This document shows, piece by piece, positions 40,891-56,853 of a DNA stretch of 64,000 nt (the first letter of the stretch is position 1; each line of letters starts with the position of its first letter). Origin of the DNA: Planctomycetota bacterium (GTDB lineage: Bacteria; Planctomycetota; Planctomycetia; Planctomycetales; Planctomycetaceae); assembly GCA_022600195.1 (NCBI GenBank), contig JAHZKX010000076.1:1-64000 (forward strand), read 5' to 3'. The notes under the pieces are model-generated. The model was not told the origin of the DNA. It did no database searches and saw only the letters and a list, made by a program, of their open reading frames with translations. The translations under genes were made by a program, and so were the position numbers.

Positions 40891-41532
40891 TTAATTTGCA
40901 TTTTCGCTTTTTTGCTTTACGGAAGAAATACCAACCCCTGATCGACTAAAACTAATCGCCTGCGAACCGGACACTCCTACCATCACTGTTTCAATCAGGG
41001 GTTTATCGACCTCGATCTCTGCCCCCCATTCAACGAGGAAGTTAGCTCCCGATCCTCCTGAACTATCACGATCTTCTACTAAGAATTCAATTGTTTGAAA
41101 AGGTGCTAATTTGATTGTTTGATCTAGGTACTTTTTAACCAGCTTACCTTGCGTGTTAAAATACTCAATCGAGTTCAAGTAAATCGAATGACTTTGATCT
41201 ATATTACGAATACTAAGCGTCGTCTCAAGCAGCAACGGTGCCCCACCGTGATAGTAAATATGTGAATAGGAGGGTACATAGACCAATTGCCGAGTAGAGA
41301 GTTTGTCAAGCGAAATATTTTCCGCCTGATATTCAGTCAACTCAGGAGGTTGATAGCTCCGTGGCGGCACATATTGAAGTCGGTCTTCAATTTTTGCAAG
41401 ACGGTAATCCAGGAAGACCGCCCCTCCAACAATGACTGCAATTAATAAGAACAGAACCAGAAACAGGCCAATCCAATTTTCCCACAACCAAAGAGACCAG
41501 TCTGAATGCTCTTTCTTTTGCTGTCCAATCAT
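40891..41532 (-). CDS. DUF3124-type membrane-anchored protein
   Basis: The 213-residue protein has one membrane helix (about 20-46, NWIGLFLVLFLLIAVIVGGAVFLDY) and then an extracytoplasmic beta domain (RQLVYVPSYSHIYYHGGAPLLLETTLSIRNID, YFNTQGKLVKKYL, IEFLVEDRDSSGGSGANFLVEWGA) matching my memory of DUF3124. The conserved DxxSGGSGANF segment is intact. Function unknown. It lies downstream of the HD/ABC cluster with about 250 bases between and is probably a separate unit. Confidence 0.7.
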   Translation of the reverse strand: MIGQQKKEHSDWSLWLWENWIGLFLVLFLLIAVIVGGAVFLDYRLAKIEDRLQYVPPRSYQPPELTEYQAENISLDKLSTRQLVYVPSYSHIYYHGGAPLLLETTLSIRNIDQSHSIYLNSIEYFNTQGKLVKKYLDQTIKLAPFQTIEFLVEDRDSSGGSGANFLVEWGAEIEVDKPLIETVMVGVSGSQAISFSRSGVGISSVKQKSENAN

Positions 41533-41781: not shown

Positions 41782-42369
41782 TTAACTAAGATATTTTTTC
41801 AATTCAGTGAGTCTAGCGTTACAATTGTTGACCAGCAATTCTAATTGTTGATCAGACTGACCAGCGGCCTCAATCATGGATTGATAATATTGTACAATCT
41901 CTTCCGAACTGGCACCAAAGTGCCCCCAGAAATCGTGCTTGTCTTCTGTCTGCAAGTCAAAAAGCATGGCTTCCAGATTATGCAGTTTATCAGCTAATTC
42001 TATCGCCCGTGCTCCCAGAGTCGCTTGTTGCATGACCTCAATATGATCCTGTTTTCGGTCATGCCAACTTCGTTTTTCACCCTGGCTGGTTTCTTTTTCC
42101 TCTGTCATTTCTTTGACATATTGAATCACTTCATCGGAAAACTCTTCTGTCAGTTGTTCGATTGTCAGGTCGGTATCTTCGACGACATCGTGTAGAACCG
42201 CAGCAGCAAGAATTGTGTCATCATGAAATCCGGCCTTCATTAAGATCAGGCAGACACTCATAGGATGAGCTATATAAGGGACTCCAGAAGACTTTCTTTT
42301 TTGTGATTTATGAGCAACAGCGGCTAACCGTATTGCATGCTCGACAACAGGAGAGTGAAGTATTTCCAT
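41782..42369 (-). CDS. HD-domain protein, MESH1/SpoT-like (p)ppGpp hydrolase
   Basis: The 195-residue protein is a free-standing RelA/SpoT-type hydrolase domain without synthetase, TGS or ACT domains. Residues match small alarmone hydrolases: AHKSQKRKSSGVPYIAHP (His20 and His35), VLHDVVEDTDLT (HD at about 60-61, ED at about 64-65) and ELADKLHNLEAM (Asp-Lys-x-His-Asn, substrate side). The expected activity is removal of 3'-pyrophosphate from (p)ppGpp with Mn2+. It could also act on other nucleotides. It starts 15 bases after the degenerate ABC exporter gene, so the two are probably co-transcribed. Confidence 0.78.
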   Translation of the reverse strand: MEILHSPVVEHAIRLAAVAHKSQKRKSSGVPYIAHPMSVCLILMKAGFHDDTILAAAVLHDVVEDTDLTIEQLTEEFSDEVIQYVKEMTEEKETSQGEKRSWHDRKQDHIEVMQQATLGARAIELADKLHNLEAMLFDLQTEDKHDFWGHFGASSEEIVQYYQSMIEAAGQSDQQLELLVNNCNARLTELKKYLS

Positions 42370-42384
42370 GAATATTTCTTTAGT

Positions 42385-44478
42385 TCAACGTTCGCTCGCG
42401 GGTTCCTGAGAGTGTCGGAACTGATTAAACCGCGTATACTCCCAATGTCGATACAAGGCGGATTTCTTTAAGAGATTCGACTGACTGTCAACTGCTTCCA
42501 CTTTTCCCTCATGGATCAAGACAACCTGATCTACCCGACGAAGTGTCGTAATTCGTGTAGGCACCATGAGGATCGTACGGTTTTGAAAAATCCGTGCATA
42601 AGCATCTTCCAGAAGAGTTTTCGTATCATCATCGAGCACTCCCTCTGGCTCTTCAATGATCATTAAAGCCGGGTTCCTTAATAATGCTCGAGCCAGACCC
42701 AAACGGAATTTTTCACCTGTCGTCAATTCTTCACCATGTTGCCCCAGTACAGTCTCGTATCCTTGAGACAAATTCTGAATGAATTGGTGAGCGTGCGATT
42801 CTTTTGAAGCAGCAATTATTTCCTGCAATGAATATCGTTCATCACCACACTGAATATTCTCTTTGACGCTTCCCGTCAGACTGGGGTCGTTTCCACTCAC
42901 ATAAATAGCTTCAGCCCTCAATGATTCCAAGGTCACCCAGGCAGTATCCTCCCCATCCATTAAGATGCGTCCCGACTTTGGCTCTATAAACCGCGGAATC
43001 AGATAGGTTACCGCGCGTGGCGCAAGTTCTTCTAGTGAAACAAAAGCCATGCTGATTCCTGCAGGAATTTTTAAATCAAATCCATTCAGAATTTTTGAAT
43101 TCTGCCCAGAGAGATTGTAGCTGACATTCTCAAACTGTAACGATTGTGAGAGAGGCTCTAAAAACTTGGCACCCACTGCCTGACTGACTTCTGGGATCTT
43201 GCTGAGATAACGATAAATAGAACTGGCAGCAATATTGGCTTCTGAGCGAATCTTGATGAGTCCATAGAGACCATTGACCGGAATATAAAAAAAAGCGAAT
43301 ATGACAACAATTAATACCGCGGCTGAAAATGGCAGGCTTGCTGGATTCACTAACACCTTATAACCCACAAGGAACAACACAAGACACGAACAAAAAACTG
43401 CGAGTATACGGGCAATGCGATGCCCCCAGCCTTCAACGCGTTTCAACTTTTCAATATGTTCGGTATATTTTTCGAGATGTTGCTGAAAATGTGCATGCTC
43501 TGATGTTTCCATGCCATACCCTCGAACCAATCGCGTGCTGCGGACATTTTCTGCCAGCAAAGCCAACTCGGTTTCAATAGATATTAACGTTCGAGCATGT
43601 TGAAATTCATAATCTTTTCGATGTTGCTGTAAAAAATACCAAGCAGCTGTTAGTGGAATCATACACTGGAGTGTTAATCTCCAGTCAACTGAAATCGTAA
43701 AAAACAGTAGAATCAACAGTGTGGAAGCATGTTGAGAAAGTCTATAGACCCACTGAAAAACACCATTTTGCACTACCCCAACATCTTTGGTGAATAAAGA
43801 AAAGGTCTCGTCCGTTTCTCTACCTGATAAATCACCAGGCCCCAGTCGCAGTGCCTGACGATGGATCATATTTCGTAACGTCATAGAAACATGCTGAGAA
43901 ATTTTCAAACTGCGTTGCCTGACTCTCCAGCGAATCATCATACGGATGAAGGAAAGTATCAGTGCTACGAAAATGAGTGAAAAAAAGGCAGACTGATTTT
44001 CCTGAAGAACAGGAAAACGCTGGTAGAGTCGGTTCAATACATTCGAAGGAAATTTCGAATGTAACCACCACAAAGAAGGCAGGATTCCGGAATCAGTCAG
44101 AACAAGAGTATCTGAAACGATTTGAATGGGTTCTGCAGATTTCGCATTATCCACACTCGGTTCCGATTTTTTTTCTGCTGGCTCCTTATCGGATATTTCG
44201 GGAGTCTTTTCTGACTTCGCTTGATCCGAAGCAATCACAAGCGGCGGAACATTTCTCAATTCCTGAATTCTCAGGACATTCTGTTTTCCGTGAACGGTGA
44301 TCCTGCCTCGATGGCTGAGTAAGTCAACCATCAGAAATAAATTAACCACCAATAACGCAAGTAACAGACCATTTACTAGAGACCAGATCAAGACTGACCT
44401 GGCGGAACCCCGAAAGAATTCCCGCGCAGGAAATGCGCGGTGGAAGGCGTTGGGCTGACGATTTGACACAGGACCCAC
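42385..44478 (-). CDS. ABC-exporter-like half transporter with a degenerate ATPase domain
   Basis: The 697-residue protein has the ABC exporter layout: helices near 30-52, 163-185, 251-264 and 355-405 and a C-terminal nucleotide-binding domain (about 446-665). The Walker A site reads SLEELAPRA (about 481-489) where GxxGxGKST is expected, so the invariant Lys is Pro487. The signature is LTTGE rather than LSGGQ, Walker B is IIEEPE (Asp to Glu), and the H-loop is VPTR with Thr641 for His. ATP hydrolysis is therefore unlikely. Between the first two helices a loop of about 110 residues contains a Lys/Glu/Ser/Pro-rich linker (about 86-118), unusual for exporters. It lies between an ABC-2 permease gene (45-base gap) and the HD hydrolase gene. 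Confidence 0.8.
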   Translation of the reverse strand: MGPVSNRQPNAFHRAFPAREFFRGSARSVLIWSLVNGLLLALLVVNLFLMVDLLSHRGRITVHGKQNVLRIQELRNVPPLVIASDQAKSEKTPEISDKEPAEKKSEPSVDNAKSAEPIQIVSDTLVLTDSGILPSLWWLHSKFPSNVLNRLYQRFPVLQENQSAFFSLIFVALILSFIRMMIRWRVRQRSLKISQHVSMTLRNMIHRQALRLGPGDLSGRETDETFSLFTKDVGVVQNGVFQWVYRLSQHASTLLILLFFTISVDWRLTLQCMIPLTAAWYFLQQHRKDYEFQHARTLISIETELALLAENVRSTRLVRGYGMETSEHAHFQQHLEKYTEHIEKLKRVEGWGHRIARILAVFCSCLVLFLVGYKVLVNPASLPFSAAVLIVVIFAFFYIPVNGLYGLIKIRSEANIAASSIYRYLSKIPEVSQAVGAKFLEPLSQSLQFENVSYNLSGQNSKILNGFDLKIPAGISMAFVSLEELAPRAVTYLIPRFIEPKSGRILMDGEDTAWVTLESLRAEAIYVSGNDPSLTGSVKENIQCGDERYSLQEIIAASKESHAHQFIQNLSQGYETVLGQHGEELTTGEKFRLGLARALLRNPALMIIEEPEGVLDDDTKTLLEDAYARIFQNRTILMVPTRITTLRRVDQVVLIHEGKVEAVDSQSNLLKKSALYRHWEYTRFNQFRHSQEPASER

Positions 44479-44523: not shown

Positions 44524-45450
44524 TCAGGCAAGGTCACGGTCTTCAAAAAGGATAAAGGCAACCAGAATCGCGATTCCGGAATAAAGCAGACAGCTTAAAG
44601 CCGAATAACCGATATAGATTGGTGGAACCACTGTTCCTGTTGCAACCGCTGGTGACATATTAAAATTATCCAGGTTGGGCAGAACTGTGGCGATCAACTG
44701 TCCTGTGAACTTCACAAACTCCAGCCCTTCTGTTTTGGCCTGAACCAGATTCGGTGTCAGGTGGCCTATGATGTAGACCCCAAAGCAGATAATCATATTC
44801 ACCATCATCGGCAGACGGGTTGAAATGGCGACACTGATTGCAGTCAGGATAGCAACTTCCATATAAATCAGAAGAATACCCGGAAGAATCAGCCAGACAG
44901 CTGCCATTTTTTCTGCATGGCTGGGAACATCTTTGGAAGCTTCCCGCGCATCATAACCTACCTTGAAATAAACAAGTAACAGGAAGGTAATCACCATCGG
45001 GAGCATCAACCAGACAACGGCTTTTAGAATGCCTAGGTATTTTCCGACTATAAATTGACGACGATTGATCGGCTTCGACAGCAATGTCATGGCCGTCTTA
45101 CCTTCAATTTCATCTGCGATACTTGTGCTGGCAGACCAGACCGCAAGCAACAGACTGCATATCAAAATCGTGGCTAAGCCGCAGTCCATCAGCATTTTTA
45201 CATCATCGCCCATCGAAAAGAACGGGAGAAATGTGTTGAGCAGCAGCAGAACCAGACCCAATGCCATTAGCAACATGAAGACTGGTTGGCGAATCGCCTC
45301 TTTCGTAGTGGCTTTGGCAATCACTCCTGCCTGTGAATAAGAAACCACTCCAAATAGAATCACAAAATATATCAGGACACCAATTCCGGTAATCCACCAT
45401 TGCACCGTCAAGTCAGTATTTTCTGCAGAAAAAACCAAGAGGCTTTCCAT
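44524..45450 (-). CDS. ABC-2 type transporter permease
   Basis: The ATG at 45450 (GGTGA nine bases upstream) is preferred to a GTG at 45462, giving 308 residues. The protein has about six membrane helices and the ABC-2 hallmark [30 protein letters not shown] after the second or third helix. No intact ABC ATPase gene is next to it; the neighbouring exporter-like gene (42385-44478) has a degenerate ATPase, so the cognate ATPase is probably encoded elsewhere or upstream of the window order. Substrate unknown. Confidence 0.82.
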
Positions 45451-45462
45451 TGTAATATTCAC

Positions 45463-45781: not shown

Positions 45782-46093
45782 TTAGCGTTTGATTGAAAAG
45801 TTCAAACAGTTTGGATCGGGAGCGGCTTCCTGAATCGATACATCTGTTACATTTGTTGCAAAAGTCAGCATCATTTCATCAAAAAATTCGTCCAGAATCG
45901 ATTTGTCACTCGCCTGGACCATCAGTTCAACAGTCCCGTCTGACAAATTTTTGACAAAGCCACTAATAGGATGCTGCCTGACAAGCCTTGCAGTACGATA
46001 GCGAAAACCAACGCCCTGTACATGCCCCTGAAAAATAGCATGCAAACAGACTGTGGCTGCTGAAAAATCCGAATCGTGGGAATCAGCACACAT
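45782..46093 (-). CDS. acyP: Acylphosphatase
   Basis: The product of about 103 residues (ATG at 46093; an upstream ATG at 46123 adds ten residues) carries the family core HAIFQGHVQGVGFRYRTARLV with the phosphate-binding Arg31, and the catalytic Asn49 in GFVKNLSDGTVELMVQ. It hydrolyses carboxyl-phosphate bonds such as acetyl phosphate. It lies downstream of csrA with about 110 bases between them. Confidence 0.92.
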   Translation of the reverse strand: MCADSHDSDFSAATVCLHAIFQGHVQGVGFRYRTARLVRQHPISGFVKNLSDGTVELMVQASDKSILDEFFDEMMLTFATNVTDVSIQEAAPDPNCLNFSIKR

Positions 46094-46203
46094 TGTACGG
46101 GCTTCTAATATCGAAATATGCAATCATGAATTAGAAACGAATTTTTATCGACAATCGTCCGATCAAGAAAACTTGAGACGGAAACCAGGAAAGGCAGTTC
46201 GCA

Positions 46204-53875: not shown

Positions 53876-56077
53876 TTACAGATCAGGACTTTCATCAGGT
53901 TGTCGGCTATTTCCCACACGTATCAGGAAGAACCCCATTATGACGATCAGTAACGAACTTCCCAGCCAGACTATGGGTAAGTGCTTCTGATTTTCCAGAT
54001 TGATTTTCCAAGTGGAAAAATAATCCTGATAATTGGCGAGAGTCAGTAACAGTCCATTGTGAATCATATGCAGCATGATCCCGGGAATCACACTGCGAGC
54101 AAGCACGTTCACATAACCCAGAGCCAGTCCCATAAAAAAACTGGGAAAAAATCGCTCGATAAATAATGAATCTCTCACGATCACATGAAATAACGCAAAC
54201 AAAAATGCAGAGATCAGGATCGCAGGCGTACTGGAAAAACGATTTAAGAGGGAGCTTAGTAAATAACCTCGAAAAAATAATTCTTCACAAACCGCAGGTA
54301 ACACGGCCAGAGAGATTAATTTGACCCACAGGGGGACTGCCCCTAATTCCAGTTTCAATGACTCAAACAATTTTGAAAGCGACTCTATCCGTTCATTACT
54401 GAGTGAGAGAATTTCGATTTCATAAGCAAATGGCCAGAGAGTGAAGCCCAGTAGAATGGCTCCCAGGCAAGAGAGAATTCGAGGTCTAAACCAACGAAAT
54501 CCGCTTTTAAGTTTTACACCACCCATTCGAGCGAACAAGAGTGGAATCAAAAGAAACAGGCTGAATGTAAGAGTTCCCGAAATCAGCAACCGTTGCGATA
54601 TCGACATCTCGCCCAATCGGCTCACAAATGATGCAGAGAGAATAAACACAGGAAATAGTACTGCCAGACAAAGTATGGCATTATTTAGGGCGGGCACTGC
54701 ATGCGTCTTTTTTGATCGCTTGAGTAAATCGGTCCAGGAAGCATTGCTCTGATAGAGAATGGTATCAGTTCCAAAAATCCGTGCCGCCAGACTTAATGCG
54801 ACAATTCCATAAAACAAAGTTGAAAACACCGACACAAAAACCAAGAGTGGCTGTGCATCGTGAAGTAGAAAATCTCGACTGAGTAACACGATATTCGCCA
54901 GCGGAATAACAGCCCATAGTGGAGTCATCTTCAAATCGGGTACCATCCCCAGAATCCCAGGTGCCATTGAGATCATCATTAGCGGAATCAAATAGGCCTG
55001 AGCTTCTTTGAAACTACGGGCAAAGCTGGTAATACAGAGTAGAACCGCTGAAAAGAAAGCGGCAAAGATCATCAGTAACAACAAGATTTCCAATAATACA
55101 AATGGTGTCATACCCGTGCCAAACAAGACGGTTTCCAAGCCGTTGGCATATGTGGTCGCCAGCATAGCCATCATATTGACAAGTGCAGTCATAATAGCAA
55201 CCACTAAAACCGCGATGAATTTGGCACTCAAAATCCACATCCTCGGTAATGGAGCCGCCATTAAAGTTTCAAGTGTACCTCGCTCTCGTTCTCCCGCCGT
55301 TAAATCAATTGCCGGATAGACGGCTCCCGTCATAGTCATCAAAATCAAAATCAGAGGCACGATAGTCACTAGTGAGAACGTCTGACCTGACTGCGTATTG
55401 ACTGCTGAAATAGATGTTTTGAAAGGAACGGCGTTACTTTCCCCAAAATCTTTGAGAAGTCGATTCCTGTATTCCCATCTGACTGCCAGTAAGCGTTTTT
55501 CAACATAGTCTGCAACGCGTCGACTGTGTCTGGATTGTGCCCCGTAGATGATCTCAAACCGGCCTCCCAGCTTGTTGCGATTAAATTCTTCTTCCTGTTT
55601 TTTACTGGTAATAAACTGAACGCCTACATCAACGTCCCCATCACGCACAAAAGATTTTAAAGTTCGATTTTTGTTTGCGTCATCCACAATCAGGATCTTA
55701 ATTTTCGGCTTTTGCTGCTCGAACTCTTCGAGCGTCTCATCGGGTTTGCTTTTTTCTGATGTCGAGAACTCTTTATACTTTTTTAATTTGAGAATTTGTT
55801 GTCCGTGGTTAAACGCATTACGAAATAAATCTCCTTCTGATTCGTTTGGCAGAAGGATGCGATATTCTACTTTCCCCAGATTTTCCATCTGACTCATAAA
55901 AAACTTCTGCAACATTAATCCCAACAGAGGATAAACCAGCAAAGGCATTAAAACCAAGGTGATAATCGTGCGCCGATCACGAAGAATTTCGCGCAATTCT
56001 TTTTTCAACAGACCTGAAAACCGGAATGTTCCTGCGTAAGAATGAGTGCGTACGTGCAATTTAGATGAATCCGACAT
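53876..56077 (-). CDS. ABC-2 (NatB-like) permease fused to a CPBP intramembrane protease
   Basis: The 733-residue protein joins two modules. The N-terminal 450 residues are a NatB/ABC-2 permease (FRFSGLLKKELREILRDRRTIITLVLMPLLVYP, extracytoplasmic domain about 60-235, then DLTAGERERGTLETLMAAPLPR and helices). The C-terminal part (about 480-700) is a CPBP/Abi protease with CEELFFRGYLL (two catalytic Glu and Arg, near 598-603), FALFH (His near 631) and HMIHN (His near 670, Asn near 674), so the proteolytic site looks complete. It follows the ATPase gene with a TGATG one-base overlap. Export coupled to cleavage is an inference. Confidence 0.88.
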   Translation of the reverse strand: MSDSSKLHVRTHSYAGTFRFSGLLKKELREILRDRRTIITLVLMPLLVYPLLGLMLQKFFMSQMENLGKVEYRILLPNESEGDLFRNAFNHGQQILKLKKYKEFSTSEKSKPDETLEEFEQQKPKIKILIVDDANKNRTLKSFVRDGDVDVGVQFITSKKQEEEFNRNKLGGRFEIIYGAQSRHSRRVADYVEKRLLAVRWEYRNRLLKDFGESNAVPFKTSISAVNTQSGQTFSLVTIVPLILILMTMTGAVYPAIDLTAGERERGTLETLMAAPLPRMWILSAKFIAVLVVAIMTALVNMMAMLATTYANGLETVLFGTGMTPFVLLEILLLLMIFAAFFSAVLLCITSFARSFKEAQAYLIPLMMISMAPGILGMVPDLKMTPLWAVIPLANIVLLSRDFLLHDAQPLLVFVSVFSTLFYGIVALSLAARIFGTDTILYQSNASWTDLLKRSKKTHAVPALNNAILCLAVLFPVFILSASFVSRLGEMSISQRLLISGTLTFSLFLLIPLLFARMGGVKLKSGFRWFRPRILSCLGAILLGFTLWPFAYEIEILSLSNERIESLSKLFESLKLELGAVPLWVKLISLAVLPAVCEELFFRGYLLSSLLNRFSSTPAILISAFLFALFHVIVRDSLFIERFFPSFFMGLALGYVNVLARSVIPGIMLHMIHNGLLLTLANYQDYFSTWKINLENQKHLPIVWLGSSLLIVIMGFFLIRVGNSRQPDESPDL

Positions 56078-56853
56078 CAATTCACATCCTCTTGAATCGA
56101 AGCCCTAGACTCCTGGCATACAACAGGCGCGTCGAGTAACTGTAGAAATATTTGTGTCAAAGTCTGACACATTGTACTTTGCTTCAGTTCTAACAGAGTT
56201 CCTTCGTAGCGTTTTTTCCCTTGATGCAATAAACCAAACCGATCACAGAGCAGTTCTGCCTCATCGAGTCGATGAGTGCAGACAATTACCGCTTTGCCAG
56301 CATCGCGCAAATGATCAATGTAGTCAAAAATGACTTTACTGCCGACTACATCCAGGCCGCGGGTTGGCTCATCCATCAACATGACAGGTGGATTGTGGAT
56401 GAGCGACCTTGCCAGATTCACTCGCTGTTTTTGTCCGGTACTCAATGTAGCAGAACGACGATCTAAAAATGGTGTCAGTTCAAAGAGTTGAGTTAGATTT
56501 GCTATACGCTCAGTGGCCTGATCTTTCGGCACACCATAGACGTCAGCGAAGAAAAAAAGAATTTCACGGGGCGTTAGCCATTGGTAGAGACCCGCGCTGG
56601 TTGAGACCAGTCCCACGCGACGTTTGATTTCGTCAGGTTGACGTGAAACGAGAAAACCTTCCACTTCCGCATCGCCACTGGTTGGTTTTAATAGCCCTAA
56701 AATCATTCGGAGCGTCGTCGTTTTACCGGCTCCGTTTGGACCCAGCAAACCATAGACCTCGCCTTGCGACACGGCAAAAGAGACATGATCCACGGCTAGA
56801 ACATCTTCATTCCCTGCCTCGAATATCCGCGTAAGATCATTTACTAGAATCAT
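56077..56853 (-). CDS. ABC transporter ATP-binding protein, NatA type
   Basis: The 258-residue ATPase is intact: [17 protein letters not shown] (Walker A), [13 protein letters not shown] (Q-loop region), [16 protein letters not shown] (signature), [12 protein letters not shown] (Walker B) and [13 protein letters not shown] (H-loop). It closely resembles NatA-type ATPases, which pair with NatB permeases in Na+ or peptide export. It is translationally coupled to the permease-protease fusion downstream. Confidence 0.93.

Follow-up and report, generated by a model that had tools for sequence, protein, structure and literature searches.

A degenerate ABC exporter of Planctomycetia as a candidate non-hydrolytic subunit of an ABC-2 permease

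Why would a bacterium keep an ATP-binding cassette (ABC) exporter whose ATP site has been rewritten motif by motif? This question is raised by a minus-strand gene of a Planctomycetota bacterium, found in a window (the whole stretch of DNA analysed) of 64,000 nucleotides on contig JAHZKX010000076.1, from a genome of 6.58 Mb in 84 contigs. The closest named records to the protein belong to Gimesia, a genus placed by NCBI in the Planctomycetia, Planctomycetaceae. The answer favoured here, with moderate confidence, is that the encoded protein, hereafter the pseudo-exporter, would serve an ABC-2 permease, encoded just upstream, as a structural or regulatory subunit that does not hydrolyse ATP.

The pseudo-exporter and its altered ATP site

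On the minus strand, the reading frame runs open for 697 codons, from a GTG at 44478 to a stop at 42385, with no obvious Shine-Dalgarno sequence ahead of the GTG when inspected by eye. Both Pfam domains of an exporter half-transporter score above their cut-offs, ABC_membrane (PF00664) with 53.6 bits against 28 and ABC_tran (PF00005) with 41.4 bits against 25, the latter alignment beginning at profile position 30; this agrees with an earlier sequence-only reading of the same DNA, which had assigned the protein to this class. The best NCBIfam match is MsbA (TIGR02203), at 193.1 bits for a cut-off of 602, which places the protein outside MsbA proper. In the AlphaFold2 prediction the transmembrane domain consists of long exporter-like helices. 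The predicted model of the nucleotide-binding domain (NBD) reaches a template modelling (TM) score of 0.84 to an MsbA chain; the structure comparison relied on this NBD model only, the full-length model being poor in the NBD, with a predicted local distance difference test (pLDDT) score of 64.2 overall and query-normalised TM scores of 0.27-0.37 among the matches listed. By its domain order, the protein is an exporter half-transporter of the MsbA/ABCB type, in which the NBD fold is predicted to be retained.

The ATP site itself has lost its usual residues (Table 1). Compared with a canonical paralogue, the three Walker A glycines are all replaced (Ser481, Glu484 and Ala486), and GK[ST] does not occur a single time in the whole protein, which accordingly contains no Walker A motif of the form GxxxxGK[ST]. 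The Walker B aspartate, the Q-loop glutamine, the H-loop histidine and the LSGGQ signature are likewise missing, and the A-loop aromatic residue is also lost, as judged by eye in the sequences viewed. The sequence-only reading had listed a proline at the Walker A lysine, a threonine for the H-loop histidine, a glutamate for the Walker B aspartate and the signature LTTGE, and all four are present; the Q-loop and A-loop losses come in addition to its list. Judged from these motifs, the NBD would not bind or hydrolyse ATP in the normal way and is very probably non-hydrolytic. Moreover, since a single chain lacks both Walker A and the signature, it could not make up a canonical composite site with any partner.

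Conservation and selection across relatives

Each of the 17 genomes in the genus, including the one that holds the window, has a match to the pseudo-exporter, the others being 65-91% identical, and a profile search yielded a match in 158 of the 170 family genomes and 57 of the 58 genera, with one match each except for two genomes with two. When the family is restricted to genomes with a completeness of 90% or more and no more than 5% contamination, 126 of 130 are matched; regarding the four misses, G015 contains a fragment, and in G082, G112 and G163 the best match is a canonical exporter with an intact Walker A. The class-wide search matched 232 of 347 genomes at E 1e-90, a figure that includes canonical exporters (L154, L155, L156, L159 and L160) and is not a count of pseudo-exporters. 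At the level of the phylum, where weak homologues could be missed, 36 of 294 genomes match, all of them from the same class or closer, and one (G204) is canonical.

The motifs were read in 109 orthologues, comprising 15 from Gimesia, 65 from other members of its family and 29 from elsewhere in the class. The loci represent mostly one per genus rather than a random sample, and L193, L194 and L204 were located via the permease; L036 and L038 have no motif rows, L221 and L232 are cut at the 3' end, and two additional relatives with eroded motifs, L252 and L275, lie outside the tallies. Orthologues with an intact GxxGxGKS were sought, as the sequence-only reading had advised, and an intact Walker A is found in none of the 109, versus all seven canonical controls in the same alignment. 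Within the family, the Walker A lysine and the Q-loop glutamine are absent from all 80 members read and the H-loop histidine persists in only 2 of 79, whereas in the other families these residues are present in 12, 18 and 17 of 29, respectively. The Walker B aspartate is rare everywhere (2/79 within the family, 0/29 outside), and the second Walker B acid, the catalytic glutamate, is retained in 107 of 108 orthologues. Two of the 29 sequences from outside the family, L193 and L204, are even more eroded. This gradient of motif loss between families suggests that the ATP site was lost stepwise. As a side observation, it is the Mg-binding aspartate of Walker B that is usually changed to glutamate (IIEEP), although the catalytic glutamate persists.

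The domain is nevertheless maintained. All 15 Gimesia members read share the same altered motifs, and the ratio of nonsynonymous to synonymous substitution rates (dN/dS) in this genus is about 0.05 for the NBD and 0.062 for the transmembrane domain, as calculated from the pairs passing the dS filter (44 to 61 of 91, depending on the region). The claim of the sequence-only reading that the frame is open over the full domain and has not decayed is borne out by the 697 open codons, by these ratios and by the family-wide retention. Expression of the protein, which that reading also claimed, is no more than implied by an open frame under selection. In the light of an ATP site that is gone by its sequence while the predicted fold and the selection persist, the NBD is probably kept for a non-catalytic job.

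In a tree of 86 exporters, a single branch separates 57 pseudo-exporters from 29 canonical planctomycete sequences, with a value of 100 in the Shimodaira-Hasegawa-like approximate likelihood ratio test (SH-aLRT). The split persists when the motif columns are removed (SH-aLRT 100) and with the membrane domain alone (99), each of these repeat trees holding 52 pseudo-exporter and 27 canonical rows after omission of seven rows. These are quick trees with a midpoint root and SH-aLRT as sole support, without bootstrap, and the placement of L193 and L204, which sit on very long branches, is unsure. They are compatible with a single origin of the pseudo-exporters.

The ABC-2 permease as a conserved companion

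The gene upstream of the pseudo-exporter encodes a protein scoring 37.2 bits against the ABC-2 permease profile PF12679 (cut-off 27.2). On the same strand and no more than 900 bases upstream, such a permease gene is present in 100 of the 110 testable pseudo-exporter loci versus none of the seven canonical ones, and in 97 of 107 once the three loci located via the permease are left aside. Where the two genes are not adjacent, the permease is found elsewhere in nine of the ten genomes; in G099 (L239), the two genes share a contig, with the permease some 1.9 kb upstream. Five of these ten loci (L216, L229, L235, L239 and L246) have only about 1.7 kb of upstream sequence, and one Gimesia locus has too little flank. 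The sequence-only reading had described a same-strand cluster with an ABC-2 permease and a MESH1-like gene: the permease is indeed conserved, but the MESH1-like gene is patchy, a comparison of 49 loci having shown it close by in 13.

Conversely, 11 of 14 class genomes, picked because no clear pseudo-exporter had been seen in them, possess the permease without a pseudo-exporter behind it. Since the permease also occurs without the pseudo-exporter, the latter looks like an accessory of the former. Given that the two genes recur as a pair, the ABC-2 permease is, on the evidence of gene order, the best candidate partner, ahead of another exporter half. An ATPase gene adjacent to the permease is not found among the genes of the window. 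Likewise, a BLAST search with six ABC proteins of the genome in the flanks of 71 loci (64 pseudo-exporter, 7 canonical) returned five distant stand-alone ATPase open reading frames (ORFs) of 229-308 residues, none of them beside the pair. A distant permease match in another class (L190, E 5.5e-22) directly follows an ORF in which a Walker A motif is present.

Two further observations concern this gene pair. In L149, L150, L151, L153 and L158, the permease frame extends to 522-761 residues, with an apparent extra domain ahead of the core; these are stop-to-stop frames whose starts are uncertain. In G221 (L210, 5795-7498), the permease and the pseudo-exporter are apart, and some 1.8 kb downstream of the permease there is an exporter-like ORF of 568 residues whose Walker A (GPNGSGKT) is intact.

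Possible roles of the pseudo-exporter

The proposed model is that the pseudo-exporter would form a membrane scaffold, probably homodimeric, which would assemble with the ABC-2 permease and stabilise or gate it, ATP-driven work, if any, being done by an ATPase encoded elsewhere. What we infer here comprises the lack of ATP hydrolysis, the homodimeric state, the physical association with the permease, and the scaffolding or gating role. The suggestion of the sequence-only reading that the protein acts as a regulator or scaffold is thereby taken up in the form of a permease subunit, but not with another ABC half as its partner. A broader scenario, to which we would give slightly less than an even chance, is that an old exporter lineage, present in much of the class Planctomycetia, lost both ATP sites stepwise and was re-used as a dedicated non-energised subunit of the permease, the resulting complex uniting two kinds of ABC membrane protein, neither having a working engine in the cluster.

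Several points weigh against this model. Gene order is no proof of a complex. One draft genome that is 90% complete (G041) carries the pseudo-exporter and no permease was found in it; conversely, the permease is present without the pseudo-exporter in several families, and in the family, among genomes with a completeness of 90% or more, G163 has a permease and no detected pseudo-exporter, G112 only part of a permease, and G082 neither. Scans for transcription signals gave no clear sign of an operon: promoter-like sites number 9 versus 10.6 in shuffled sequences, and a weak terminator-like site stands at 44579-44562, at the end of the permease gene, in a scan giving 8 sites versus 5.4 expected. 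In addition, dS is close to saturation, with a median of about 1.8. Finally, the near-universal catalytic glutamate, together with the lysine kept by some members outside the family, makes nucleotide binding possible, at least in those relatives.

This last point is the basis of a rival explanation, in which the remodelled site would still bind a nucleotide as a signal, in the manner of regulatory ABC proteins. The second Walker B acid and the partial retention of lysine, glutamine and histidine outside the family speak for such a sensor, but within the family the P-loop, the glutamine and nearly all the histidines are gone, as is the A-loop aromatic in the members viewed by eye, and we regard this role as improbable. 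A heterodimer, in which the pseudo-exporter would be the non-hydrolytic half of a pair with a canonical half-transporter encoded elsewhere, e.g. L117 on contig C49 of the same genome, is rated just as poorly. Degenerate-site heterodimers are a known kind of exporter according to excerpts of PMC7756269, and the co-occurrence that the sequence-only reading had proposed to check was indeed found genome-wide, with canonical half-transporters in all seven genomes searched (G000 has four PF00664 matches, the pseudo-exporter counted). However, no half-transporter gene was found in the flanks of the 71 loci, which leaves a partner elsewhere in the genome possible, and a chain lacking both Walker A and a good signature would damage both composite sites, following the logic set out in those excerpts. 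On these two grounds, the partnership with another ABC half is regarded as unsupported.

The pseudo-exporter could also transport without ATP, acting as a homodimer that works as a facilitator or lipid scramblase and in which the dead NBDs only clamp the membrane part, the permease then being a separate function in the same cluster. The conserved transmembrane domain, with its low dN/dS and predicted exporter-like helices, and the preserved NBD fold would suit such a protein, yet the frequent adjacency of the permease would be left unexplained; this alternative appears unlikely, though less so than the sensor or the heterodimer. As for a decaying pseudogene or a sequencing error, some signs exist: an in-frame TGA occurs near a contig end in one Gimesia metagenome-assembled genome (G015, L036; L013), and the matched stretch of other rows in the genus and family searches was marked as containing one or two stops. 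Three flagged loci (L074, L077 and L086) nevertheless proved open over 622-738 codons when re-read, and the same motifs across orthologues (in every Gimesia member read), the selection and the family-wide retention led to the rejection of this explanation, whose probability is close to nil. The reading as a non-hydrolytic permease subunit is the one favoured.

Comparison with known systems

The pseudo-exporter resembles the MsbA-type (ABCB) half-transporters in domain order and predicted NBD fold, but departs from them in its altered ATP-site motifs, in its score far below the MsbA cut-off and in its separation by one branch from the 29 canonical planctomycete exporters. If the proposed role is correct, it would be comparable to SUR1 (ABCC8), an exporter-like ABC protein which, according to excerpts of the literature, is itself a subunit in the assembly of a different membrane protein. 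SUR1 is eukaryotic and full-length and acts as a nucleotide sensor, whereas the pseudo-exporter is a bacterial half-transporter without a normal site, whose partner would be an ABC-2 permease. With the ABC-2 transporters, the locus shares a recognisable PF12679 permease in the upstream gene; unlike those having their own ATPase, it has the pseudo-exporter in the place beside the permease, and no ATPase gene there.

The loss of catalytic motifs retained by evolution is shared with TM287/288, TmrAB, TAP and the nucleotide-binding site 1 (NBS1) of Pdr5, as far as the excerpted text of PMC7756269 describes them. Degenerate sites are, according to the same excerpts, common in ABC exporters, where the other composite site remains active, whereas the pseudo-exporter lacks both Walker A and signature in one chain. 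In the number of altered motifs, it comes close to Pdr5 NBS1, which is reported there to have Cys for the Walker A lysine, Asn for the Walker B glutamate, Tyr for the H-loop histidine and an LNVEQ signature; the pseudo-exporter differs in having kept the Walker B glutamate and lost the aspartate.

No description of a dead-site ABC exporter from a planctomycete was found in the open-access literature, among the matches listed. Genome-wide transposon data exist for Planctopirus limnophila (PMC10632474), and the term "ABC transporter" is absent from the main text of that paper as far as its excerpts go. Having lost the whole ATP site in this family yet being held under strong selection, and with less eroded forms in other families, these proteins offer a natural series for the role of an NBD without ATP, and they point to a putative membrane complex of planctomycetes that is as yet unstudied.

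Other features of the locus

Table 1. Features of the pseudo-exporter locus (positions in the window; residues refer to the pseudo-exporter)
Feature	Position	Strand	Basis
Pseudo-ABC exporter half-transporter, GTG start, 697 aa	42385..44478	minus	ORF list, Pfam, orthologues, motif tally
Transmembrane domain, about residues 150-433 (ABC_membrane match 160-398)	43180..44031	minus	Pfam and AlphaFold2 helices
Pseudo-nucleotide-binding domain, residues 420-697 as modelled	42388..43221	minus	
Replaced Walker A, residues 480-491, VSLEELAPRAVT, Pro487 at the Lys column	43006..43041	minus	Alignment
Q-loop position, Gly529 for Gln	42892..42894	minus	Motif tally
Degenerate signature LTTGE (for LSGGQ), residues 585-589	42712..42726	minus	Alignment
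Altered Walker B IEEP, residues 608-611; Asp changed to Glu609, catalytic Glu610 kept	42646..42657	minus	Motif tally
H-loop position, Thr641 for His	42556..42558	minus	Motif tally
Conserved C-terminal motif YRHWEYTRFN, residues 676-685	42424..42453	minus	Alignment
ABC-2 permease, 312 aa, ends 45 bases upstream of the GTG	44524..45462	minus	PF12679, neighbourhood
Acylphosphatase, upstream of the permease	45782..46123	minus	PF00708
MESH1-like HD hydrolase, downstream	41782..42369	minus	PF13328
DUF3124 protein, two genes downstream	40891..41532	minus	146.9 bits

Within the protein, the C-terminal motif is identical across 10 aligned sequences and still discernible in most members viewed. The loop of roughly 110 residues after helix 1, which the sequence-only reading had found unusual, is real but not special: residues 58-145 have a predicted pLDDT below 50 and the loop evolves fast (dN/dS 0.28 in Gimesia), and by eye a long loop is seen in the canonical paralogue L117 too, with shorter loops in some relatives.

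Regarding the neighbouring genes, an acylphosphatase gene precedes that of the permease in 40 of 68 loci from various parts of the class, some of them without a pseudo-exporter. The MESH1-like hydrolase was set aside as a functional partner in view of its patchy occurrence, and its neighbourhood is probably incidental. BLAST matches to the DUF3124 protein were obtained in 4 of the 51 loci compared (L010, L011, L098 and L099). Further along the window, a stand-alone ABC ATPase followed by a 734-residue ABC-2 permease (53876-56853, minus strand) constitutes a separate, complete-looking ABC system, whose ATPase is NatA-like and whose permease looks fused to a CPBP-type protease domain. This ATPase (56077-56853) was considered as an engine for the permease of the pseudo-exporter locus and set aside, as it sits with a permease of its own.
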